From: Ralstonia sp. UNC404CL21Col
GTDB lineage: Bacteria > Pseudomonadota > Gammaproteobacteria > Burkholderiales > Burkholderiaceae
Length of the DNA: 64,000 bases
Reading direction: 5' to 3'
NCBI RefSeq assembly: GCF_000620465.1
Contig: NZ_JIBE01000004.1
Span: 1,178,001 to 1,242,000 of the forward strand
In this document: positions 1 to 63,830 of the stretch, in pieces
Numbering within the stretch: the first letter of the stretch is position 1
Layout: the number at the start of each line of letters is the position of its first letter
Program-made: the position numbers and the translations under genes
The notes under the pieces: model-generated
What the model was told of the DNA's origin: nothing
Database searches by the model: none
What the model saw: the letters and a program-made list of their open reading frames with translations, nothing else

Positions 1-60
1 CACATCGAGATTCAGGACATGGCGCAGTTGCTGGCTGCAAGCGAAGCCGGCACCGACTAA
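1..60 (+). CDS. C-terminal end of a CDS entering from the left
   Basis: An open frame runs from the first base through 19 codons (HIEIQDMAQLLAASEAGTD) to a TAA stop at 58-60. The stop overlaps the TAG of the convergent reductase gene by two bases. Tight tail-to-tail packing is usual in this genome, and the composition looks coding, so this is probably the end of a real gene. The fragment is too short to assign a family. Confidence 0.35.
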   Translation, partial: HIEIQDMAQLLAASEAGTD

Positions 61-1070
61 CCTGCCGCCCGCAACTCTGCCAGGAGATCGTTGCCCGACC
101 AGTTCGGGCGTGTAGCGGCGGATTCGGCGGCATGCACCAGCGCACACAGTTGCGCATTCACCGGCGCGCGTTGCCCCAGGCGCTCTGCCAAACGCACCAC
201 TTCTCCGTTGATCCAGTCGACCTCCGTCATGCGCCCGGCGGCCAGATCGTCGGACATGGATGAACGCGCGAGCGGATCCATGGCGAGCATCTTGCCGGCC
301 AGCCGCGCAAACACGGCATCCGGCGTGGCGAGCAGGCGTGGAATCCAAGCGGGCGGTATCGGCGTCAGCTTGGCAGGCCGGATGCCCGCGCGCGACAGCA
401 GCCGGAGTGCTTCTGTTTGTGCCAGCGCCAGGCAGTGCCGGTACGCATGCTGCGACAGCTCTTCCTTCAGCGGCCGGTTGGCCAGCGCATTGATGGCGTT
501 GTTCAGGTTGAGCAGCAGCTTGGCCCATTGCACGGCTGCCATGTCGGTGCGTTCCGTGAGCGGCAGGCCTGCGCGGCGGAAGTCATCACCAAACGGTTGC
601 AGCGCGGGGGACGCCGCCACTTCCAGTTCACCGGCCGTGCCCTGATGAAAAGCGCCCGGGCCAGGCTGCATCACGTTGAAGGGCACCATGCCGGCCAGCA
701 CGGTCTGCTGTGGCAGCGCGGCGCGCAGGACGTCGGCATTGCACAGGCCGTTCTGAAAACTGACGACGATGGTGCCCGCGCGCAGCACGGGCTTCAGTTC
801 ATCGGCAACGGATTGCGTGGCGGCAGATTTGACGGTCACCAGCACGAGATCGGCATCGGCGGCGGCGCTGGAATCGGCCATGTAGCGGATCGCCGCAGGC
901 GGCACCTGCCAGCGGCCGTTGCGGTAGTCCGTCAAGGTCAGGCCGTGCGCGCTGAGTTCGTTGCCGATGCGTGCGCGGCCCACGAGCGAGACATCGGCAC
1001 CGGCCGCCAGCAGACGGCCACCCAGATAACAGCCGATCGAGCCGGCCCCCACGATGCAGATCTTCGCCAT
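57..1070 (-). CDS. 2-dehydropantoate 2-reductase family protein (PanE/ApbA)
   Basis: The 337-residue protein starts with a Rossmann glycine motif, GAGSIG at residues 8-13, as in ketopantoate reductases. These enzymes use NADPH to reduce 2-dehydropantoate to pantoate in pantothenate synthesis. The middle has AVQWAKLLLNLNNAINAL (K184 and the following Asn residues), which matches the catalytic Lys/Asn region, and the C-terminal helical domain has the MTEVDWINGE segment. The start is supported by AAGGAGAC just upstream. It follows the PhoD gene by about 35 bases on the same strand and may be co-transcribed. Many genomes carry several PanE paralogues of unknown substrate, so the family is secure but the pathway role is not. 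Confidence 0.85.
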   Translation of the reverse strand: MAKICIVGAGSIGCYLGGRLLAAGADVSLVGRARIGNELSAHGLTLTDYRNGRWQVPPAAIRYMADSSAAADADLVLVTVKSAATQSVADELKPVLRAGTIVVSFQNGLCNADVLRAALPQQTVLAGMVPFNVMQPGPGAFHQGTAGELEVAASPALQPFGDDFRRAGLPLTERTDMAAVQWAKLLLNLNNAINALANRPLKEELSQHAYRHCLALAQTEALRLLSRAGIRPAKLTPIPPAWIPRLLATPDAVFARLAGKMLAMDPLARSSMSDDLAAGRMTEVDWINGEVVRLAERLGQRAPVNAQLCALVHAAESAATRPNWSGNDLLAELRAAG

Positions 1071-39348: not shown

Positions 39349-41862
39349 ATGCGGATGACGTGCGCCCGCACGCCCCGCTCACTGGACACGACAACAATGA
39401 CAACCCACGAGCCAATTTCCTCGAGCCTGCCGGCCGCACGCAGCGGCGCGGCTGCGGCATGGCATCCACGCCGCTGCGCAATTGCTGCCGCCACCGTTGT
39501 GGTGGTGGGCACGGCGCCGATGCTCGCGCACGCCGCGATCGACGATGCTTCGAACGCCGCCACCCGGCGCCTGATCGACACGCAGTTGGGCGACGCGGCG
39601 GCCAAGGGCCCGGCCACGTTTGCATCCACCACCGTCATCGTCGGCGGTGACGATCTGCCGGCGTCGCCGGCCGGCACGCTGCTGGTGGCGCAACAGGCCG
39701 TGCCGCCCGCCGATTCGCCCGTGACGGCCTCCCCGGCAGCCACTTCGCCAGCCCCCGCGGCGCCAATGCCGGCTGTTGAGGCAGCGCCCTCGGCTCCTCC
39801 GCCCGCGCCGCAGTCGCCCACGGTGATCCTGCCCCCGGGCACGCCTTCGCCGGATGCAGCCGCCCAGGCCCCAGTCGTGCCTTCAGGACCGAGCGCACAA
39901 GGTCCGGGCGCTCTGGAACCGCTGCAGGTGTCGCCGGAAGCAGCCAATGCAGCGGCTACGCACGCCGCCGGTAATGCTCCCGACAACGCGCCCGTCGGCC
40001 CAATGCCGACCGACCGCCAAGCCTTCCACGATGAAGTCATGCGCGAATCGCGCGAGGGCGCGGCCACGCTGGCGCAAGAGAACCTGCGCCAGCACCCGGA
40101 CTGGTTCAAGGAAGCCGAGTCATGGCATGTGGACCATGCCGCCGCTGCACAGCGCATCCGTTGGGGGCGTCAGCAGTTGAAGGTCATCAACGGGCCGGAA
40201 CGCTTCGTCATCATCGATCAGGCGGTGGCCGAGATCGAGGCACTGCTCAAGAAGGTGCCCGATACGCCCGAGAACGCGGAGTTCCGCCAGGAAATCGTGG
40301 CGGATGAAGTGGTGGCACTGTCCTCGCGCGGGCGCATGAAGGATGCCGTCAAGCGCTACGAAGCCATGTCGCAGACCGGCAAGGTGCCCGCGTACACACG
40401 CGTTGCTGCGGGCGACGCGTATGCGTATCTCGACACGCCGGACAAGGCCGCTGCGGCGTACGCGCAAGCGCTCAAGGATGCGAGCCCGGGCGAGATCGAA
40501 ACGGGCGATGTCCAGGAAGGCCTCTTCTACGCCATGCTCGATACGGGCCGCTTTGAAGACGCCCGCGCGCTGCTCGACAAGATGAAGGCCGACAACCCGG
40601 AATATGTGCGCCTGGCGCCGGAAGCCGGCACGCCCAATCCCGATTACTCGCGCATCAAGCGCCTGGAAGCGCAGTACCTGATCCTGACGGGCCGCACGCA
40701 CCAGGGCATTGCCGAGCTGGACAAGTGGCGCCACGAAGCACCGTTTGCCGCATCGCTCGTCAGCGCACGTGCCGACGGCGCGATGGTGCAGACCGAGCCG
40801 TATCGTTCGCGCGAGATGTACAAGACCGCGCTGGCCGAGCACCCGGATGACCTGAGCGTGGTGGCCGGCTATGGCCGCGCATCGTTGGCGGTGGACGATC
40901 TGAAGACCGCCAAGGATGTCGCCAACGGGCTGGATGAGCGCTTTCCCGAGAACGGCTCGGTGCGTGCGCTGCGCAAGGATCTGGATGTCTACCAGAGCCC
41001 GCAGCTGATCATCGAATCGACGGCGGACAAGGGCAATTCGGTGTTCGCCAACAACGAATTCGGGGTCAGCACCAAGGCCTACAGCGGGCCGTTTGCCGAT
41101 CACTATCGCCTGTTTTTCCACAACTTTGCGGGCCGCGCACAGTTTGACGGCGCCACGCAAAGCCGTGTGCGCAACGGCGCAGGCCTGCAGTGGTTCGACA
41201 CCGGCGTCGAAGTGAACGGCGAGGTGCACCAGTCTGTTGGTGCGGCCGGCAAGACCGGCGGCACCCTGGATGCAACGTGGATCCCGAGCGACCACTGGAA
41301 GGTGTCGGGCCTCGTCACCACCGATGACCTGGAGGTGCCCTACAAGGCGTACCAGGTGGGTGTGACCGGCAAGACCTTGAGCGGCAACGTGCGCTACACC
41401 TGGGATGAAACGCGTTACGCATCCCTGACGTACGGTGTGTCGCGCTACTCCGACGACAACCTCCGCCAGCGCTGGGCCGCGAACTTCTACCAGCAGGTGT
41501 TCACCTCGCCGCGCCACACGGTCGGCGTGCTGCTGGGTGCCGATACCAGCAACAACACCATGACGGGCCTGAACTACTTCAGCCCGTCACGCGACTACAG
41601 CGGCACGGCCACCGCCATCTGGTCATGGACGCCATGGCGCTACGCCGACAAGTCGTTCACGCAGCGCCTGTACCTGACCGGCGGCGTGTACAACCAGCAG
41701 TCGTTCGGCAACAGCCCGATGATGGAAGCGCGGCTCGAACATGTCTGGCAGATCAATCGCAAGACGCAGGTTTCCTACGGTATCGGCTTTGGCCGCCATC
41801 GTTACGACGGCCAGCCCGAGAACCGCAAGTTCCTGTACCTGAACCTCAACATTCCGCTGTGA
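39349..41862 (+). CDS. pgaA: PgaA: PNAG outer-membrane export porin
   Basis: 837 residues (E. coli PgaA is about 807). A signal-like hydrophobic segment lies near residues 45-62 (AIAAATVVVVGTAPMLAHA). A proline/alanine-rich linker of about 100 residues is next, then TPR-like helical repeats to about residue 540 (such as YLILTGRTHQGIAELDKW). A C-terminal beta-barrel with alternating strands ends in YLNLNIPL. It exports and aids deacetylated PNAG passage across the outer membrane. The start is uncertain: 39349, or the ATG at 39397 (MTTHEPISS), which gives a more normal signal peptide. It is the first gene of pgaABCD and overlaps pgaB by one base. Confidence 0.88.
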   Translation: MRMTCARTPRSLDTTTMTTHEPISSSLPAARSGAAAAWHPRRCAIAAATVVVVGTAPMLAHAAIDDASNAATRRLIDTQLGDAAAKGPATFASTTVIVGGDDLPASPAGTLLVAQQAVPPADSPVTASPAATSPAPAAPMPAVEAAPSAPPPAPQSPTVILPPGTPSPDAAAQAPVVPSGPSAQGPGALEPLQVSPEAANAAATHAAGNAPDNAPVGPMPTDRQAFHDEVMRESREGAATLAQENLRQHPDWFKEAESWHVDHAAAAQRIRWGRQQLKVINGPERFVIIDQAVAEIEALLKKVPDTPENAEFRQEIVADEVVALSSRGRMKDAVKRYEAMSQTGKVPAYTRVAAGDAYAYLDTPDKAAAAYAQALKDASPGEIETGDVQEGLFYAMLDTGRFEDARALLDKMKADNPEYVRLAPEAGTPNPDYSRIKRLEAQYLILTGRTHQGIAELDKWRHEAPFAASLVSARADGAMVQTEPYRSREMYKTALAEHPDDLSVVAGYGRASLAVDDLKTAKDVANGLDERFPENGSVRALRKDLDVYQSPQLIIESTADKGNSVFANNEFGVSTKAYSGPFADHYRLFFHNFAGRAQFDGATQSRVRNGAGLQWFDTGVEVNGEVHQSVGAAGKTGGTLDATWIPSDHWKVSGLVTTDDLEVPYKAYQVGVTGKTLSGNVRYTWDETRYASLTYGVSRYSDDNLRQRWAANFYQQVFTSPRHTVGVLLGADTSNNTMTGLNYFSPSRDYSGTATAIWSWTPWRYADKSFTQRLYLTGGVYNQQSFGNSPMMEARLEHVWQINRKTQVSYGIGFGRHRYDGQPENRKFLYLNLNIPL

Positions 41863-44063
41863 TGCCCATGCAAGCTCTCCGACAACCGTCATTGCGACGA
41901 TTCATCGCCTGGATGGCATTGACCGTGGCGCTGGCCATCGTGGCCGCCGTTCGCCCCGCCGGCGCCGTCCAGGTGGACTTCCTGCCCAAGCCCGATCCGG
42001 ACGACGGCAAGACCTTCCGCGTGCTGTGCTTCCACGACATCCGCGACAACCTGCGCGCCAGCTTCGAGACGCTGCCTGACGGGTTTGCCGTCGACACCAA
42101 GATGCTGACGAACATGTTCAGCTGGATCCAGGCCAACGGCTATCACCCCGTCACGCTCGCGCAGATCGACGAGGCGCGCCGTGGCGGCAAGCCGCTGCCC
42201 AAGCGCCCGATCCTGCTGACGTTCGACGATGGCTACGAGAGCCATTACACGAAAGTTTTCCCGCTGCTCAAGCAGTTCCGCTTCCCGGCCGTGTTCGGCC
42301 TGGTGACGGAATGGACCAATGCGCCGCCGGGGGCAAAGATCAAGCTGTCGAACACGCAGATCGTCGACCGCGATTTCTTCATGAACTGGAACCAGATCCG
42401 CGAGATGCAGGCTTCGGGCCTGGTCGAGTTCGCCACGCACACGCACGACATGCATCACGGTGCGCTCGGCAACCCCCAGGGCAACGAAATGCCGACTGCG
42501 ACCACGCATGAGTATCTGCCCAAGCTCGGCCGCTACGAGACCGACGACGAGTATCGCAAGCGCGTGCGGGCCGACCTGCAGCGCAGCGTCGACATCATCC
42601 AGAAAAACGTCGGCACCAAGGTGCAGACGGTGGTGTGGCCGTATGGTGCCCACAACCTGATGGCTGACCAGGAGGCCGCCAACGTGGGCCTCAAGTACAT
42701 GCTCACGCTCGAGCCGGGGCCGAACACGCCGGATGTGCCGCTCACCGCCATCCGCCGCAGCCTGATGGGCTACGACACCAACACGGGCGATCTCGAGCGC
42801 TCGCTGCGCGAGCCCGTGACGCACCACGGGATGATCAACCCCGTGCAGCGCGTGGTGCATGTCGACATGGACTACATCTACGACCCGGACCCGAAGCAGC
42901 AGGAGGCCAACCTCGGCAAGTTGATCGACCGCATCAAGGACCTCGCACCGCGCGTGGTCTACCTGCAGGCCTTTGCAGACCCGAAGGGCAACGGCGCCGT
43001 GGACGCGGTGTACTTCCCGAACCGCCACATGCCGATGCGCGCGGACCTGTTCTCGCGCGTGTCGTGGCAGTTGAAGACGCGGGCGAAGGTGGAGGTGTAC
43101 GCCTGGCTGCCGATGCTGTCGTACAAGCTGCCGGCCAACAATCCGGCGGCCACGCACCTGGTGCAGTCGGTGGCCGGTGCGCCGCAGAAGCCGGGAACGG
43201 TCAAGCCGCCGCGGCTGTCGCCGTTCGATCCGCAGGCGCGCCAGATGATCCGCGACATCTATGAAGACCTGGCCAAGAACGCGACCATCGACGGCATCCT
43301 GTTCCACGACGACGGCGTGCTCGACGACTACGAAGATGCCAGCCCGGCTGCGCTCAAGGCCTACGAGGCCATGGGCCTGCCCGGTGACATCAACCAGATT
43401 CGCCAGTCGCCCGAGTTGATGCAGAAGTGGTCGCGGGCCAAGACGGCTGCGCTGATCTCGTTCTCGAAAGAGCTGATCTCGGTGGCGCAGGGCTATCAGA
43501 ACGGCCGCGACATGCTGACCGCGCGCAACATCTTTGCAGGCCCGGTGCTCGATCCAAAGGCTGAAACGTGGACGGCGCAGAACTATGACGACTTCCTGGA
43601 GGCGTACGACTACGTGGCGCTTGAAGCCATGCCGTACATGGAAGAAGCCAAGGATCCGAAGGACTGGATGAAGAAGCTGACGGCCGCCGTGGCCAAGCAC
43701 AAGGACGGCCTGAAGAAGACGATCTTCGAGCTGCAGGCAGTGGACTGGCGCAACCACGACAAGCCGATCCCGTCGACCGAACTGCGTGACCAGATGCGCG
43801 CGCTGCGCTCGGCCGGTGCGCTCAACTACGGCTACTACCCCGATGACTTCATTGCCGGTCGGCCCGATACCGAGGTGCTGCGCGAGGTGATGTCGCTCAA
43901 GACCTATATCGAGACGCGCAAGCCGGTGGGCGGCGACAAGGGCAGCGTTGAAAAGCTCAACAGCTCGTCGCTGCCGCAGAGCCAGCCGCCGAATGCCGGC
44001 GTGGACAGGAAACCCGCGACCACCGAAGCCGCGACGTCGTCCAACACTAAGGCGGGAGGCTGA
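41862..44063 (+). CDS. pgaB: PgaB: PNAG N-deacetylase with glycoside-hydrolase domain
   Basis: 733 residues. After an N-terminal hydrophobic signal (FIAWMALTVALAIVAAVRPAGA) comes a CE4 deacetylase domain with D122-D123 (LLTFDDGYESHY) and the metal histidines in THTHDMHHG. The C-terminal half is the GH153-type domain with GILFHDDGVLDDYEDASP, the active-site region that cleaves partly deacetylated PNAG. E. coli PgaB is a lipoprotein, but no lipobox cysteine is seen here. It starts by overlapping the pgaA stop. Partial deacetylation is needed for export. Confidence 0.92.
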   Translation: MPMQALRQPSLRRFIAWMALTVALAIVAAVRPAGAVQVDFLPKPDPDDGKTFRVLCFHDIRDNLRASFETLPDGFAVDTKMLTNMFSWIQANGYHPVTLAQIDEARRGGKPLPKRPILLTFDDGYESHYTKVFPLLKQFRFPAVFGLVTEWTNAPPGAKIKLSNTQIVDRDFFMNWNQIREMQASGLVEFATHTHDMHHGALGNPQGNEMPTATTHEYLPKLGRYETDDEYRKRVRADLQRSVDIIQKNVGTKVQTVVWPYGAHNLMADQEAANVGLKYMLTLEPGPNTPDVPLTAIRRSLMGYDTNTGDLERSLREPVTHHGMINPVQRVVHVDMDYIYDPDPKQQEANLGKLIDRIKDLAPRVVYLQAFADPKGNGAVDAVYFPNRHMPMRADLFSRVSWQLKTRAKVEVYAWLPMLSYKLPANNPAATHLVQSVAGAPQKPGTVKPPRLSPFDPQARQMIRDIYEDLAKNATIDGILFHDDGVLDDYEDASPAALKAYEAMGLPGDINQIRQSPELMQKWSRAKTAALISFSKELISVAQGYQNGRDMLTARNIFAGPVLDPKAETWTAQNYDDFLEAYDYVALEAMPYMEEAKDPKDWMKKLTAAVAKHKDGLKKTIFELQAVDWRNHDKPIPSTELRDQMRALRSAGALNYGYYPDDFIAGRPDTEVLREVMSLKTYIETRKPVGGDKGSVEKLNSSSLPQSQPPNAGVDRKPATTEAATSSNTKAGG

Positions 44064-44064
44064 T

Positions 44065-45351
44065 ATGGAAGTGGACTTCCTTCTGGCCAAGCGCTGGATC
44101 TCCGACTTCGTCTTCTACTACCCGTTCTTCATGTCGTATTTCTGGATGATCGGCGGGCTGCTGCACTACTTCCTGCTCGAACGGGGAACGGAGCACGTGC
44201 GGCACCCGCTGGCACTGCTAGGGGTGAAGAGCTACCCCAAGGTGTCGATCATCGTCCCTTGCTACAACGAAGAGGCGAACGTGCGGGAGGTGATCAGCCA
44301 CCTCGCGCGCATGCGGTATCCGAACTACGACATCATCGCCGTGAATGACGGCAGCTCCGACCGCACCGGCGAGCGGCTGAACGAACTGGCTGCGGAGTAT
44401 CCCCAGCTGGTGGTGATTCACCAGTCGTCCAACCAGGGCAAGGCGATCGGCCTCACCACCGCTGCACAGGTGACCGATGCCGAGTACCTGATGTGCATCG
44501 ACGGCGATTCGATTCTCGACGTGGATGCGATTGCCTGGATGATCCGCCACCTGATGGAGAACCCGACCATCGGTGCGGTGACCGGCAACCCGCGCATCCG
44601 CACGCGTTCGACGTTGCTGGGGCGCATGCAGGTGGGCGAGTTCTCGTCGATCGTGGGGCTCATCAAGCGGACGCAACAGATTTATGGGCGGCTGCTGACG
44701 GTGTCGGGCGTGGTCGTGATGTTCCGCAAGCACGCCATCGAGGATGTCGGCTACTGGAGCAACGACATGCTCACCGAGGACATCGACATCAGCTGGAAGC
44801 TGCAGGTGGGCGGCTGGATGATCCGCTACGAGCCGCGCGCGCTGTCGTGGATCCTGATGCCCGAGACCTTCCGCGGCCTGTACAAGCAGCGCCTGCGCTG
44901 GGCCAAGGGCGGCATTCAGGCGCTGATCAAATACGCGCCGGCGATGGCGAGCCTGCGGCAGTCGATGATGTGGCCGATCTTCTTCGAGTACGCCCTCTCG
45001 GTCGTGTGGGCGTACAACATGCTCATCGTCATCACGTGGTCGATGGTCAGCTTCTTCGTCGACTTGCCCCCCGAGTGGCGCATGGAAGCGCTGCCACGGT
45101 GGCACGGCACGCTGCTGTTCATCACGTGCGTGCTGCAGTTGTTGATCGGCTGCTTCATCGACCGCCGCTACGACGACAACATCCTGCGCTACTTCATCGA
45201 CACGGTCTGGTATCCGGTTGCGTTCTGGATCCTGAACCTCGTCACCACGGTGGTCGGCTTTCCGGCCGTCGCCTTCCAGCGTACGCGTGCCCGTGCCCGC
45301 TGGACCAGCCCTGACCGGGGCATCCAACAACAACAGGGGAATTCGCCATGA
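44065..45351 (+). CDS. pgaC: PgaC: PNAG synthase, family 2 glycosyltransferase
   Basis: 428 residues. Membrane helices flank a cytoplasmic GT2 domain with IIVPCYNEE, the DxD in CIDGDSILD, TEDIDISWKL and the processive-synthase motif QRLRW. It polymerises UDP-GlcNAc into poly-beta-1,6-GlcNAc together with PgaD. GGGAGG precedes the ATG at 44065, and there is one base after the pgaB stop. In other bacteria c-di-GMP activates the PgaCD complex. Confidence 0.93.
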   Translation: MEVDFLLAKRWISDFVFYYPFFMSYFWMIGGLLHYFLLERGTEHVRHPLALLGVKSYPKVSIIVPCYNEEANVREVISHLARMRYPNYDIIAVNDGSSDRTGERLNELAAEYPQLVVIHQSSNQGKAIGLTTAAQVTDAEYLMCIDGDSILDVDAIAWMIRHLMENPTIGAVTGNPRIRTRSTLLGRMQVGEFSSIVGLIKRTQQIYGRLLTVSGVVVMFRKHAIEDVGYWSNDMLTEDIDISWKLQVGGWMIRYEPRALSWILMPETFRGLYKQRLRWAKGGIQALIKYAPAMASLRQSMMWPIFFEYALSVVWAYNMLIVITWSMVSFFVDLPPEWRMEALPRWHGTLLFITCVLQLLIGCFIDRRYDDNILRYFIDTVWYPVAFWILNLVTTVVGFPAVAFQRTRARARWTSPDRGIQQQQGNSP

Positions 45352-58415: not shown

Positions 58416-60800
58416 ATGACCATTCGTCATCGCATTACATTGCTCGTGGTGCTGATGTTTGTCGCGCTGGCGGCCATCGGCGGATACGCGGTCTACCAGA
58501 CCCGCGGCAGCGCGGCTGAGGTGCGCCAGGTGACGGAAGGCGTGGTGCCGAGCGCGCTGGCGTCGGCGGACCTTGTCTCGCTCGTCAAGGACGTGCAGCT
58601 GGCGACGATGGTGTTGGTGTATGCGCCTGACGCCAACATCGTCGCGCAGGCCAAGGACGATCTCAAGGCGAAAGAAGCCGCCCTGCGCGCAGCGTTGGAC
58701 GTGCAGGCCAAGCGCGCCAACAGCCACGCGCAGGAAGGCCTGGTTGCGCAGGCCAAGGAAAGCGTCGACAGCTACGTCGAGGCGATCCAGCAGACCACCG
58801 ACATGAAGCTTGCGGGCAAGGATGAACTGGCGCAGGCCTTCCTGTTTGCCAACGTGGCCAGCTACCGCGACGTGCTCGAGAAGATTGTCGAGACGCTGCG
58901 CATCGAGAAGAACCGAGAGAAGGACGAAGCCATTGCCGGCCTGAACGGCAAGCTTGCGAGCACCGCCACCACCATCGGCGTGGTGAGCGGCGTGGCCGTT
59001 GTGCTGCTCACCGCCATCGGCATGCTGCTGTATCGGCAGATCACCCGGCCGCTGACGCGCATGCAGGCCGAGATGAGCGAGATTGCCGCCAGCCAGGACT
59101 TCACGCGCCGCGTGCCGGTGGGCCGCATGGACGAGATCGGCCATTCGGTCGTCGCGTTCAACCAGATGATCGAGAAGATCCAGGAGAACGCCGCGCTGCT
59201 CAAGCAGAAGACGGCCGACATCCAGGCGATGCTGCAGAACATGCAGCAGGGCATCCTGACCGTGGTCGAGGGCGGTGTGGTGCACGAGGAGTATTCGGTC
59301 TACCTCGAATCGATCTTTGAGACGCAGGCAATCGCCGGCCGCCGGCTGATGGAGCTGATCTTTGCCGATACCAGCCTGGGCGCCGATACGCTGTCGCAGG
59401 TGGAGGCGGCGGTCGATGCGTGCCTCGGGCAGGACATCATCAACTTCGCGTTCAATCAGCATCTGTTGGTGAGCGAAGTGGAAAAGCGCATGCCGGACGG
59501 GCGAACGAAGACGCTCGACCTGTCGTGGTCGGCCATCACCGATGAGAGCGACACCATCCTGCGCCTGATGCTGTGCGTGCGCGATGTGACGGAGCTGCGC
59601 AAGCTGGCGGCCGAAGCCAGCGAGCAGCGCCGCAACCTGGAGATGATTGGCGAAATCCTGGCGGTGAGCCAGGAGAAGTTCCAGCACTTCATCGACAGCT
59701 CCACCACCTTCGTGCACGAGAACGAACGGATCATCCGCCAGTATTCGCAGGCGGACAGCGCGGCCATTGCGGCACTGTTCCGCAACATGCACACCATCAA
59801 GGGCAATGCACGCACGTACAACCTTCAGCACCTGACCAACGTGGTGCACGAGACCGAGCAGACCTACCACGCGCTGCGTGAACCTGACGGCGAACGCACG
59901 TGGGACCAGGACTGGCTGATGGAAGAACTGGCACGCGTGCGCGAAGCCATCGAAAACTACGCCCGCCTCAACGAGGTGAAGCTGGGCCGCAAGGGCGACG
60001 GGTCGCCAGGCCAGGCCATGCAGGCAGCGCCGGACGTGACGACGCGCATCCAGGAAAGCCTGCGCCTGCTGGAATCGGCCAACCCGGCCAACCTGCACGA
60101 GCTTGTGGCGATGCGCGATTCCGTCCATCAACAGCTGCGCCTGCTGTGCAGCGAGACGGTAGATGCGCTGTTGTCCGGCGCGCTGCAATCGCTGCCGTCG
60201 CTGGCACAGGAGCTGGGCAAGGAGTCCGTGGCGGTGCGCATCGACGACAACGGCTACCGCGTGCGCACGGAGGCCCGCAGCATCCTGCAAAACGTGTTCA
60301 CGCACCTGCTGCGCAACTCGATCGACCACGGCATCGAACCCGCCGACGAGCGCATCGCGCACGGCAAGCCGGCTGCCGGCACGATCGACATCGAAGTCGG
60401 TGTGGACCAGGGCATGCTGCAGATCACGCTGTGCGACGACGGCCGCGGCCTCGCGCTCGACCGCATCCGCAGCATCGCCGTGGAGCGCGGCTGGATTGGT
60501 GCAGACCAACACGCCAGCGACGAAGACATCGCGCAGTACATCTTCCGCCCCGGCTTCTCGACCGCCGACAAGGTGACGGAGGTGTCCGGGCGCGGCGTCG
60601 GCATGGATGCCGTGCAGGCGTTTCTCCAGCGCGAGCAGGGCCGTATCGAACTGCGCTTTACCGACGACCGCAAGGGCGCCGCATTCCGCCAGTTCCAGAC
60701 GGTCGTGTGCCTGCCTGAACGTTTTGCGGTCGACAGCGTGAACGCGACGCTGAGCGCACCGCCCGCGGTACGCATGGATCTCGACAAGGAAGCATCGTGA
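58416..60800 (+). CDS. Membrane CheA-like histidine kinase with HAMP, PAS-like, HPt and ATPase domains
   Basis: 794 residues from the ATG at 58416. An MCP-like input section comes first: helix one ([20 protein letters not shown]), a periplasmic four-helix-type region, helix two near 180-205 and HAMP ([12 protein letters not shown] to [11 protein letters not shown]). A PAS-like segment follows (about 275-400), then an HPt domain with H459 in MHTIKGNAR. The CheA-type ATPase has N box [12 protein letters not shown] near 630 and G box [10 protein letters not shown] near 725. No CheW-like P5 domain follows. It thus looks like a chemosensory kinase carrying its own receptor. The following three genes overlap or lie within 40 bases and encode an MCP-tip protein, CheX-like and CheY. 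Confidence 0.85.
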
Positions 60801-61516
60801 TGGGGATGATTGTTCTGGGTTTCATCGCTGGCGGCGTGGTGGCCGGCGTGCTGGTGTGGCTGATCCGTCAGCGGAAAGTGAATGCGATGACGCGCGCCTT
60901 GAGCGATGCCGATCACCGCATCGCCGATCTGTCGACTGATCTGGCGAAACACGCTGCACTGGTGGATACGGGCATGCGCGAAGTTGCCGCACTGGAAACC
61001 ACCGTGGCCCAGATGCGCAATGCTGCTGCCGATCAACTGGACGTCATCGAGCAACTGCGTACCGAATTGCAGTCGGCCACGGCAGCCAAGGAACAATGGG
61101 CGGGCCGCGCCCGGCAGATTGCCGAAGAAGCGGCGCGCCTGCGCGGCCTGGCGTTGACGTTCGAACGCTGGCACGAGCAGATGATCTCGCTCATGGAGCA
61201 GAACCACGACATGCACGCGAAAAACCAGGAGCTGCAGTCCATCGTGCGGCATGTGGTGATCGTCTCGCTCAACGCGTCCATCGAGGCGGCGCGTGCGGGG
61301 ACGGCGGGGCGCGGTTTTGCCGTGGTGGCCAGCGAGGTGCGTGCGCTGGCCGCACGTTCGGAAGAGCTGTCGAAAAGCTATCGCAACAGCCTGCACCTGA
61401 ACGACCTGACCACCACCGCCACGTTCCAGGACATCCAGGCAGGCGGCAAGATGATCACCGCGTCGCTGTCGAGCGTCGAGGCGCTGGCCAGCCAGTTTCA
61501 ACACCAGCTTCACTAG
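60800..61516 (+). CDS. Minimal MCP signalling-domain protein
   Basis: 238 residues. One N-terminal membrane helix ([19 protein letters not shown]) is followed by long coiled coil and the MCP hairpin-tip region [30 protein letters not shown]. The usual tip residues preceding it (QTNLLALN type) read VVIVSLN here, so contact with CheW/CheA may differ. There is no ligand-binding domain and no full methylation helix set. The ATG overlaps the kinase stop (TGATG); a GTG one codon earlier is possible. It probably works with that kinase as an array-like or scaffold component. Confidence 0.78.
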
Positions 61517-61527
61517 GCAGGCCCGAC

Positions 61528-62061
61528 GTGATCCGCAGCAACGCACAAGAGAGTTTCGATCGCATCTTCCGCAAGGCCGCACGTACACGGCTTGTCCGGC
61601 AGGCGGGCGACACGTGTCATATCGACACCGCCGCAGAAGGCGACACGCTCAGCGGAGACGAGGCCCTGATCCTCACCATCTCGTCCATCGCCTTCCGCCT
61701 GCTGCTGGTGCTGCGCTTTGATGCCTCCGAGGCCACGCGCGCGTACTTCACGGGCGACGGCGTCGGGCGTTCCTTTGAAGAGGCACGCCTGGAAATCGGC
61801 AACCTCTGCTGTGGCGCCGTGAACCAGGAACTGCTGCAGGTGTTTCCCGACCTGGGCATGTCCACGCCTTATGTGGTGAGCGCGCGCTGCCTGCCGTATC
61901 TGGACGTGCTCAAGCCCGGCTACGTGGCTGCTTATGCGGTGACCATCAACGACGCCGTGCGCGTGGATGCCACGGTGTGCGTGTGTGCGCATGCGCCGCT
62001 GGACTTTGTGGCCGATGTCAGCGACGAAGTGGAATCCGGTGGCGAGCTGGAATTGTTTTGA
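61528..62061 (+). CDS. CheX-like protein
   Basis: 177 residues from the GTG at 61528. The segment ALILTISSIAFRLLLVLRFDASEATRAYF, then EARLEIGNLCCGAVNQELLQVFPDLGMSTPYVV, fits the CheC/CheX/FliY phosphatase fold, with the E-x2-N pattern of the active-site helix. Such proteins dephosphorylate CheY. Its position directly before a CheY gene supports this. The Shine-Dalgarno is weak and translation is likely coupled to the gene before, 11 bases upstream. Confidence 0.7.
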   Translation: MIRSNAQESFDRIFRKAARTRLVRQAGDTCHIDTAAEGDTLSGDEALILTISSIAFRLLLVLRFDASEATRAYFTGDGVGRSFEEARLEIGNLCCGAVNQELLQVFPDLGMSTPYVVSARCLPYLDVLKPGYVAAYAVTINDAVRVDATVCVCAHAPLDFVADVSDEVESGGELELF

Positions 62062-62093
62062 TTGGAAAGAGTGAGAGCGAGGAAAGAATAGTC

Positions 62094-62459
62094 ATGAGCA
62101 AGATTCTGGTTGTCGACGATTCGAGCACCGTGCGCGACGAGGTGGCGGGCTTTCTGAAGAAGCACGGCCTGGCGGTCGACACCGCGGTGGACGGCAAGGA
62201 CGGTCTGGCGAAGATCAAGGCCAACCCGGGCGTCAAACTCGTCATCAGCGACGTGAACATGCCCAACATGGACGGTTTGACCATGGTCGAAAAGGTGCGC
62301 GGCGAGCTGGGCAACAAGACCGTCAACGTCATCATGCTCACCACCGAAAGCAGCCCTGCCATGAAAGACCGCGGCAAGGCTGCAGGCGTGAAGGGCTGGA
62401 TCGTCAAGCCGTTCAAGGGCGACGCCGTGCTCGAAACGTTCAAGAAGCTGGCAAGCTGA
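62094..62459 (+). CDS. CheY-like single-domain response regulator
   Basis: 121 residues, a complete stand-alone receiver: acidic pair in ILVVDDSSTVRD, phospho-acceptor in LVISDVNMPNMDG, Thr of MLTTESS and Lys of IVKPF. AGCGAGGAAAG precedes the ATG. It is the fourth gene of the kinase/MCP-tip/CheX/CheY run. The output (motor or another protein) is not identifiable. Confidence 0.9.
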   Translation: MSKILVVDDSSTVRDEVAGFLKKHGLAVDTAVDGKDGLAKIKANPGVKLVISDVNMPNMDGLTMVEKVRGELGNKTVNVIMLTTESSPAMKDRGKAAGVKGWIVKPFKGDAVLETFKKLAS

Positions 62460-62576: not shown

Positions 62577-62909
62577 ATGCAAGAGCTCGCCTTTCGCACC
62601 CTGCTGTATCGCTACTTCTTCTTCGGCTGGCTGTTCAAGGATGCCAGCCGTGGCAACCTGTTCGAACGGTCGGCGGCATGGCGTTTCAACCAGGCGCACG
62701 CGCACTGGCTGCTGGCGTATATGCGGCGCTGGCTGTGGTGCGGGTTGCTGTGTTACGCACTGGGCGGCGTGCTTGAGCTTGGGCTCAAGACGCCGGGCCT
62801 GTCGGTGCTGTTCTATGTGCCGAGCGCGCTGAGTGTGCCGGTCAACGTCGTCATCGTGGTGTTGTGGATCGGCCTGAAGGCGCTGCCCGGGCCGCTGCGC
62901 GACCGGTAG
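62577..62909 (+). CDS. Small hypothetical membrane protein
   Basis: 110 residues from the ATG at 62577, with GAGGGAGCC upstream. The N-terminal part is aromatic-rich (LLYRYFFFGWLFKDASRGNLFERSAAWRFNQ), followed by two membrane helices (RWLWCGLLCYALGGVLELGL and LSVPVNVVIVVLWIGLKALPG). It resembles proteobacterial hypothetical proteins of unknown role. It follows cheY by about 117 bases and may belong to the same unit. Confidence 0.6.
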   Translation: MQELAFRTLLYRYFFFGWLFKDASRGNLFERSAAWRFNQAHAHWLLAYMRRWLWCGLLCYALGGVLELGLKTPGLSVLFYVPSALSVPVNVVIVVLWIGLKALPGPLRDR

Positions 62910-62921
62910 GCATTTGCGCGT

Positions 62922-63782
62922 CTAGACCATCGCCAGCAACAGTTCCTCTGCATTGCGCGGCGGGCGCAGGCCATCGGCCCGGCCCGCGAAGTAGCGCTCC
63001 GTCAACATGTCTGCCGAGATGTGCTGGGCATCGCGAAAACCGTTTTCGCGCGCCAGCGCGAGCATCTCCGGCGGCGTAAAGAAGCTGATGAACGGTGTGC
63101 CGCTTGCGCGCGCGCCTTTCTCCGCCATCTCGAGGCCGGGGCGGACATCCGGGTCGGCCATTTCGAGCGGCAGCAGGAACGTCATCGCCAGCATCGAGCC
63201 CGGCGCCAGCGACGCCACTTGCCGCAACGTGGCCGCATTGGCTTCCTTCGACAGATACATGCTCACGCCCGTGGACACCACGATGGCGGGCCGGCTTGCA
63301 TCAAACCCCGCCGCAACCAGCGCCTCCTGCCAGGATTCGCGCGCCTCGAAATCCACCGGCACGAAGCGCAGCCACTGTGGAACGCCAAAGTCCAGTTCTG
63401 CCAAACGTTGGCGCTTCCAGGCTTGCGGGCCGGGCTGATCGACTTCAAACACCGTCATGCGCGATGCCACATCGGGCCGGCGTTGCGCAAAGCTGTCCAG
63501 CCCGGCGCCAAGAATCACATACTGGGTCAAGCCACGGACCGCGTGTTCGATGACGAGGTCTTCGATAAAGCGCGCACGCGCCACGATGGACGCGCGAAAC
63601 GGCCGCGTGAATTGCGGGTCCATGTCGCCACGTTGTTGCCAGCCCGGTTCCGGGGCGAGCAGCTTCAGGCCAACCTCGTCTTCCAGCACGTGCGGCGGTG
63701 CATCGCTGTGCACGTGCAAGGCGCGCCACAACGCGACGCGCGCTGCGGTGCTGTCGGGGGATGCTGTCTGTGGGTCGTTCAT
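62922..63782 (-). CDS. Class I SAM-dependent methyltransferase (TIGR00027/LCMT-like)
   Basis: 286 residues from the ATG at 63782. The SAM motif is YVILGAGLDSFAQRRPD, with FEVDQPGPQAWKRQRL and VPVDFEARESWQEAL, the pattern of the leucine carboxyl methyltransferase-like family. VSTGVSMYLS is the next core motif. Members methylate small-molecule carboxylates or unknown targets. It is convergent with the small membrane protein gene. Substrate unknown. Confidence 0.82.
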   Translation of the reverse strand: MNDPQTASPDSTAARVALWRALHVHSDAPPHVLEDEVGLKLLAPEPGWQQRGDMDPQFTRPFRASIVARARFIEDLVIEHAVRGLTQYVILGAGLDSFAQRRPDVASRMTVFEVDQPGPQAWKRQRLAELDFGVPQWLRFVPVDFEARESWQEALVAAGFDASRPAIVVSTGVSMYLSKEANAATLRQVASLAPGSMLAMTFLLPLEMADPDVRPGLEMAEKGARASGTPFISFFTPPEMLALARENGFRDAQHISADMLTERYFAGRADGLRPPRNAEELLLAMV

Positions 63783-63830
63783 TGCACACACGCCTCCATT
63801 GGTGGACCTGCCGGTGAGCTGGTCAGTCGA

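Follow-up and report, generated by a model that had tools for sequence, protein, structure and literature searches.

A conserved gene set of a receptor-kinase with a CheA-type ATPase, a receptor-tip protein, CheX and CheY, encoded without CheW in Ralstonia sp. UNC404CL21Col

Introduction

In the part of PMC10782961 considered here, a receptor, CheA, CheW and CheY form the core of every chemosensory system, CheA is defined by P1, P3, P4 and P5, and the CheW domain was present in 100% of 13,673 CheA proteins, with HPt found directly in 98.3%; that set was drawn from MiST, and kinases without P5 may have been ineligible for it by construction. Here, we describe a locus of Ralstonia sp. UNC404CL21Col (64,000 nucleotides of contig NZ_JIBE01000004.1, hereafter the window) in which a single plus-strand run of four genes, at 58416–62459, encodes a membrane receptor-kinase, a protein with the signalling tip of a methyl-accepting chemotaxis protein (MCP), a CheX-like protein and CheY. 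The core requirement of a CheW encoded with the system has no counterpart here, as none of the eight CheW domains found by PF01584 across the genome lies in the window. Because many other bacteria have this gene set as well, it nevertheless looks, judged from its sequence, like a genuine signalling system and not like a chemotaxis operon that has broken down; it probably constitutes a CheW-independent, self-sensing, chemosensory-like relay from the kinase to CheY that is reset by CheX.

No such system is described in the parts of PMC2222644, PMC5585712 and PMC7056806 considered here, and a literature search, which left most subscription papers out, found no published description of the module.

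Results

The receptor-kinase lacks a CheW-binding domain

An earlier reading of this DNA from the sequence alone (hereafter, the sequence-only reading) had proposed a membrane kinase with receptor parts, an HPt and a CheA-type ATPase in one chain. Profile searches bear this out, with 4HB_MCP_1, HAMP, Hpt and HATPase_c all above the Pfam cut-off (Table 1), and the ATPase matches CheA structures, which make up the ten best of 11 Protein Data Bank matches (phmmer, best E 6e-30). The profile search, named beforehand as the place where the claimed absence of a CheW-binding domain could fail, found no such domain: neither the Pfam scan, nor the own-genome PF01584 search, nor the length remaining after the ATPase indicates a CheW/P5 domain, and 5–26 residues follow P4 in seven module kinases, compared to 183–308 in four ordinary CheA. 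Having no P5, the kinase is, by its predicted domains, outside the definition of CheA given in the part of PMC10782961 considered here. The Pfam scan also yielded no match to H-kinase_dim (P3); two short helices, 538–554 and 560–576, are predicted between the HPt and the ATPase in a poor model of the kinase. The phosphorylatable part is strictly conserved: H459 is present in all 112 aligned kinase stretches, and the motif SGRG(V/I)GMD, followed by 42–78 residues, is readable in 107 of them, the other five being unreadable, some at contig ends. Here and below, the invariance counts (112, 102, 100 and 99 rows) include the window's own copy, and some genomes are counted twice.

The genome's eight CheW, two CheR and two CheB domains are all outside the window, in line with the claim that the set has none of them. 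Profiles were built from these own-genome domains (8, 2 and 2, respectively) and hence match their own control loci by construction. They gave one weak CheW match (23 bits, locus L090) and no other CheW, CheR or CheB above the threshold over the 79 related loci defined below; the same CheW profile found no CheW in 33 genome loci.

Table 1. Genes of the module, predicted parts of the receptor-kinase and phosphate-transport-like neighbours in related loci
Feature	Position	Strand	Basis or remark
Receptor-kinase	58416..60800	+	794 residues; Pfam, structure-sequence matches, hydropathy, model
MCP-tip protein	60797 (GTG) or 60800 (ATG)..61516	+	238-239 residues; Pfam, alignment, hydropathy
CheX-fold phosphatase-like protein	61528..62061	+	GTG start; AlphaFold2 model, Foldseek, alignment
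CheY, single receiver domain	62094..62459	+	Pfam, alignment
Kinase, first transmembrane helix	residues ~1-29		hydropathy
Kinase, 4HB periplasmic sensor	between the two transmembrane helices		Pfam 4HB_MCP_1 above cut-off
Kinase, second transmembrane helix	residues ~180-210		hydropathy
Kinase, HAMP	residues 204-257		Pfam above cut-off
Kinase, PAS-like region	residues ~281-391		Pfam PAS 14.4 bits, below cut-off 22.6
Kinase, HPt	residues 431-510, H459		Pfam PF01627 32.5 bits
Kinase, CheA-type ATPase	residues ~595-767		PF02518 41.6 bits; short tail after
Porin and PstS-like genes	loci L074, L075, L076, L078, L079, L080, L083, L084, L085, L088, L106, L109, L137
PstA/PstB-type genes	L050:258-1887, L098:1843-4502, L104:11085-14738, L060:8154-10558		by eye

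The MCP-tip protein lacks the TN pair

The protein encoded next to the kinase had been called a truncated MCP signalling protein, which agrees with its partial MCPsignal (PF00015) match (59.1 bits, positions 42–132 of 172) and with the absence of any sensor domain or HAMP detectable by Pfam in the chain. It consists of one N-terminal transmembrane helix (residues 1–25, by hydropathy), a long coiled coil, the signalling hairpin and a short return arm; 68–92 residues follow the tip in its copies. A pattern for the hairpin core, LNA(A/S)(I/V)EAAR(A/V)G, matches 97 of 102 copies. What we take to be a typical feature of MCPs, the TN pair preceding the LNA motif (Tsr 375–376), is absent in all 97 readable copies (five of the 102 are unreadable) and kept in 11 of the 12 ordinary MCPs of the same loci, the twelfth being unreadable. 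Joint absence of the TN pair, P5 and CheW suggests a contact that has been altered, rather than one that has simply decayed.

The gene set is conserved and patchily distributed

Among 60 relatives searched, the kinase is matched over its full length or most of it in 13 of 15 same-genus genomes and in five of 21 other genomes of the family; the remaining two same-genus genomes match via CheA-type ATPase domains only. The order kinase, MCP tip, CheX, CheY on one strand, whose conservation the sequence-only reading had proposed to check, is retained in all 18 orthologous loci fetched, and thus the module is not a chance assembly. Used alone, the CheX profile picks up 13 genomes in a sample of 300 from the order and five in a class sample of 369 (own genome counted in both). 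Of 14 further loci picked by this profile alone, 12 also hold the kinase, the MCP tip and CheY, L060 and L062 being the exceptions, and in several the genes are permuted. A sample of the phylum, comprising 398 genomes, contains six carriers when the own genome is counted; G415, one of the six, is a weak outgroup.

A scan for the PAS–HPt pattern in genome contigs of 84,980 species gave 589 matches, 440 of them encoding a relative of the kinase. The best 80 of these 440 stretches, 79 of them distinct and partially overlapping with the genomes searched earlier, are the 79 loci referred to throughout. Their carriers include Burkholderia, Paraburkholderia, Trinickia, Cupriavidus, Aquabacterium and Inhella, as well as Andreprevotia, Methylobacter, Aliikangiella and many metagenome-assembled genomes, one of which, contributing the contigs L081 and L095, is labelled SAR324. 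The set comprises four genes in Andreprevotia chitinilytica (L132) and five in Aquabacterium fontiphilum (L080). The MCP hairpin protein is present in 69 of the 79 loci, all four parts in 68, and 61 of the latter have a fifth gene (see below). Carriers are thus distributed patchily, and almost all of those encountered belong to the beta- and gammaproteobacteria.

The core of the kinase is constant among related loci, and its front part varies, with GAF, 7TMR-DISM and Ser/Thr kinase-AAA regions among the variants. The kinase of L061 has a PAS-only front, that of L046 aligns poorly across the first 200 residues, and in a 2054-residue frame, measured from stop to stop (L091:2456-8617), the HPt/CheA-type ATPase core is fused to Ser/Thr kinase, AAA and GAF domains. 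Two kinases are encoded in each of L080 and L091; therefore, several receptors may feed one CheY. In an unrooted ATPase tree of 27 rows, four ordinary CheA group together (84/97), and two kinases of G415 are separate (100/98).

Copies also occur on plasmids. Megablast against plasmid sequences gave four Burkholderia records over 56–57% of the four-gene stretch, plus four short matches, and tblastn with the kinase added Caballeronia (two records) and Ideonella (one). Three plasmid-record loci were considered, and both Burkholderia copies among them are complete. The Ideonella record, the one annotated copy among those considered, carries the labels “Hpt domain-containing protein,” “methyl-accepting chemotaxis protein” and “hypothetical protein”; downstream of this copy are genes of a diversity-generating retroelement (avd, reverse transcriptase) and an integrase (L065:13313-16712).

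CheX, a fifth gene and CheY

The CheX-like protein has no match in Pfam or NCBIfam. In a Foldseek search with its AlphaFold2 model (mean predicted local distance difference test score, pLDDT, 85; predicted template modelling score, pTM, 0.82; pLDDT of the tail below 50), the 13 top-ranking matches are to CheX, CheC-like or putative chemotaxis proteins and the next is to FliM, and E89 and N92 of the ExxN pair are invariant in all 102 rows, so that the assignment to CheX made by the sequence-only reading is upheld. This pair presumably has the catalytic role that it plays in CheX. Residues 44–66, flagged by the hydropathy scan, are folded by the model as two strands. The C-terminal tail GELELF is exact in 75 of 102 rows, with F the last residue in 101.

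The fifth gene, found in 61 of the 79 loci, lies between CheX and CheY and, in permuted loci, elsewhere. It encodes a protein of about 320 residues, in which a degenerate receiver-like part, not recognized by Pfam, is fused to a CheX domain (PF13690, 40.4 bits). Judged by eye alone, the third strand of the pseudo-receiver does not end in a phospho-acceptor Asp, and the CheX domain retains the pair E223/N226 in all 76 readable rows out of 77. The same tail recurs here, GELELF being found in 57 of 77 rows and the last F in all 76 readable ones; the tail is a putative docking peptide. At L090:4170-5252, a second protein of this type (222 bits) is encoded on the opposite strand. The fifth gene is absent from the window and from 13 fetched same-genus loci and present in the family loci L042, L044 and L046. 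Hence, of the compact four-gene set originally proposed, the four genes stand, whereas the window holds the reduced form, since most related loci carry five.

CheY, as claimed, is an ordinary receiver (Pfam, 84 bits) with D8, D9, D53, T83 and K105 present; alignment shows D53 and T83 in 100 of 100 rows each and K105 in 99 of 99. Position 102 is W, where the genome's E. coli-type CheY has Y.

Genomic context, output and possible ligand

FliM was found in all 27 tested carrier genomes (of 33 then known; two have the incomplete loci L060 and L062). In the sample of the order, it is present in 13 of 13 carriers vs. 199 of 300 genomes (P 0.004 by genome and 0.014 by genus, values that ignore kinship and count the own genome). 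Since all carriers tested have FliM, motility is favoured as the output, which is probably flagellar behaviour or motility, perhaps reached by a route other than the E. coli type of FliM contact. The suggestion that the set is an alternative to a chemotaxis pathway is accordingly plausible with respect to FliM. Ordinary CheW, CheR and CheB genes exist elsewhere in the same genome. Type IV pili were rejected as a general output: the PilT family is above the cut-off in just 22 of the 27 genomes (weaker matches occur in all 27).

Thirteen of the 79 loci, found with a profile built from eight of them, encode a porin and a PstS-like protein of about 140 residues at a distance of ~2 kb or less from the module (Table 1). 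Pfam recognized PF13609 in one scanned porin; of two PstS-like proteins scanned, one has PF12849 below the cut-off and the other no match. In four loci, transporter genes assigned by eye to the PstA/PstB type are located within ~6 kb; for those scanned, Pfam gave only ABC_tran and BPD_transp_1, plus PhoU in L060 and PBP_like_2 in L104. Such neighbours are a hint that the ligand may be phosphate or something similar in the Pst-neighboured lineages, not in the window.

In the window itself, pgaABC-like surface polysaccharide genes (a PgaA barrel, a deacetylase with GHL13 and a glycosyltransferase) lie at 39349–45351, 13–19 kb upstream of the module. A small protein without a Pfam match and an LCM-family methyltransferase are encoded at 62577–63791; this pair is close behind the module in most genus relatives, and farther off or not found in other relatives. 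The Rfam scan of the window gave zero matches.

Discussion

Proposed mechanism

In the relay that we favour, the periplasmic four-helix sensor, replaced by other sensors elsewhere, would drive HAMP and the PAS-like region, which would set the rate of H459 phosphorylation by the CheA-type ATPase. The phosphate would then move from H459 of the HPt to D53 of the linked CheY and be stripped from it by the CheX-fold protein using E89/N92. The MCP-tip protein, a membrane-anchored coiled coil without a sensor, may cluster or tune the kinases directly rather than via CheW and P5, and in most other loci the pseudo-receiver–CheX protein might add a second phosphatase. Autophosphorylation by an HPt–ATPase pair, transfer to CheY and dephosphorylation by CheX are taken from the known families, and we infer by analogy that they occur here as well.

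Several observations weigh against this relay. Of the seven CheY positions that we take to be FliM contacts, five (K91, K92, I95, Y106 and T112) are changed in the module CheY relative to the E. coli-type CheY that this genome also encodes (L152), with V108 and F111 kept, and the module CheY thus appears to be without the usual motor-binding face. Two thirds of the order sample have FliM regardless of the module. CheW is present in all 27 carrier genomes tested. Not all loci are complete: L062 has no kinase nearby; in L060 (5695-9825), the kinase gene is broken after ~300 residues and CheY is missing; and the Ideonella plasmid copy has no CheY beside the module. Eleven of the 79 loci lack some parts. 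Ten show the kinase alone, in some cases as an extra kinase, and one lacks only CheY, at a contig end; four of the 11 are lone kinases, and in the other seven the contig is short or its end cuts the locus off. Finally, the kinase model is of poor quality (pLDDT 71.7, pTM 0.35), and the module kinases form one group in only 20% of bootstrap trees of the small ATPase tree. As a separate observation, an ABC-transporter gene near the module in L060 is interrupted by transposase-like open reading frames.

Alternative explanations

CheW was found in every carrier tested, which leaves canonical arrays as possible partners of the MCP tip or the kinase. The module would then be an accessory arm, its MCP tip inserting into CheA/CheW arrays, CheY and CheX modulating the flagellar switch, and the receptor-kinase serving as a side input. 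The co-occurrence of CheW and FliM in 27 of 27 genomes and the hairpin core kept in 97 of 102 MCP-tip copies fit such an arrangement. We nevertheless consider it unlikely: none of the 97 readable copies has the TN pair that 11 of 12 ordinary MCPs carry, P5 is missing from the kinase, and the stretch after the tip is only 68–92 residues long.

A low probability is also assigned to an ordinary two-component system that employs a CheA-type ATPase, is unrelated to chemotaxis and controls surface polysaccharide or transport rather than motility. A sensor, a PAS-like region and an HPt-kinase in one chain, a CheY deprived of most of the presumed FliM contacts, the pgaABC-like genes upstream in the window and the porin and PstS-like genes adjoining the module in 13 of 79 loci would all be expected of it. 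It leaves unexplained the MCP hairpin protein in 69 of 79 loci and FliM in every tested carrier, and type IV pili as a general output are themselves disfavoured, with PilT above the cut-off in 22 of 27. A canonical che operon in decay after losing CheW, CheR and CheB could account for the truncated MCP and the missing P5; such a remnant is extremely improbable, and we reject it, because the catalytic residues are invariant over about 100 copies, while the MCP is truncated in the same way in all.

Significance

If the CheW-independent relay does signal, it offers a test of whether an MCP hairpin regulates a CheA-type ATPase without CheW, and of the relationship between sensor-fused kinases and the beginnings of chemotaxis. 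The conserved set, complete in 68 of 79 loci, keeps the receptor tip, kinase, phosphatase and CheY and dispenses with CheW and P5, as opposed to the universal core set out in the part of PMC10782961 considered here. A broader proposal, which we make tentatively and regard as rather doubtful, is a third architecture between two-component systems and chemotaxis, where kinases with varied sensors, each with an HPt and a CheA-type ATPase of its own, are clustered by a sensorless MCP hairpin without CheW and feed one CheY, which is reset by one or two CheX proteins docking via the shared GELELF tail. Were it true, cooperative sensory arrays could also be built independently along these lines, or else the module would be a relic from the time when chemotaxis arose.

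Comparison with known systems

The module kinase shares with CheA (classes F1–F17, ACF and Tfp) the HPt with its conserved histidine, the CheA-type ATPase and the linked CheY; it differs in lacking the P5/CheW domain, in possessing its own transmembrane sensor, HAMP and PAS-like region, and perhaps in P3, for which the poor model predicts only two short helices. The MCP-tip protein has the signalling hairpin tip in common with MCPs (PF00015, partial), whereas it lacks the sensor domain, HAMP and TN pair and has one N-terminal helix and a short return arm. With the CheX phosphatases of known structure from Thermotoga, Borrelia, Vibrio and Shewanella, the CheX-like protein shares the predicted fold and the invariant ExxN, while it is not detected by Pfam and carries a conserved C-terminal tail common to the pseudo-receiver–CheX protein.

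Two tandem clusters in G415 (L149:4849-13431) also encode a membrane kinase with an HPt-like match and a CheA-type ATPase followed by 6–14 residues, and then, judged by eye, CheY-like and CheX/CheC-like proteins, as in the module. They differ in that no MCP-tip gene was seen between the genes, the ATPase belongs to a distant branch and the flanking protein is a different one; these clusters are possibly a simpler sister system.

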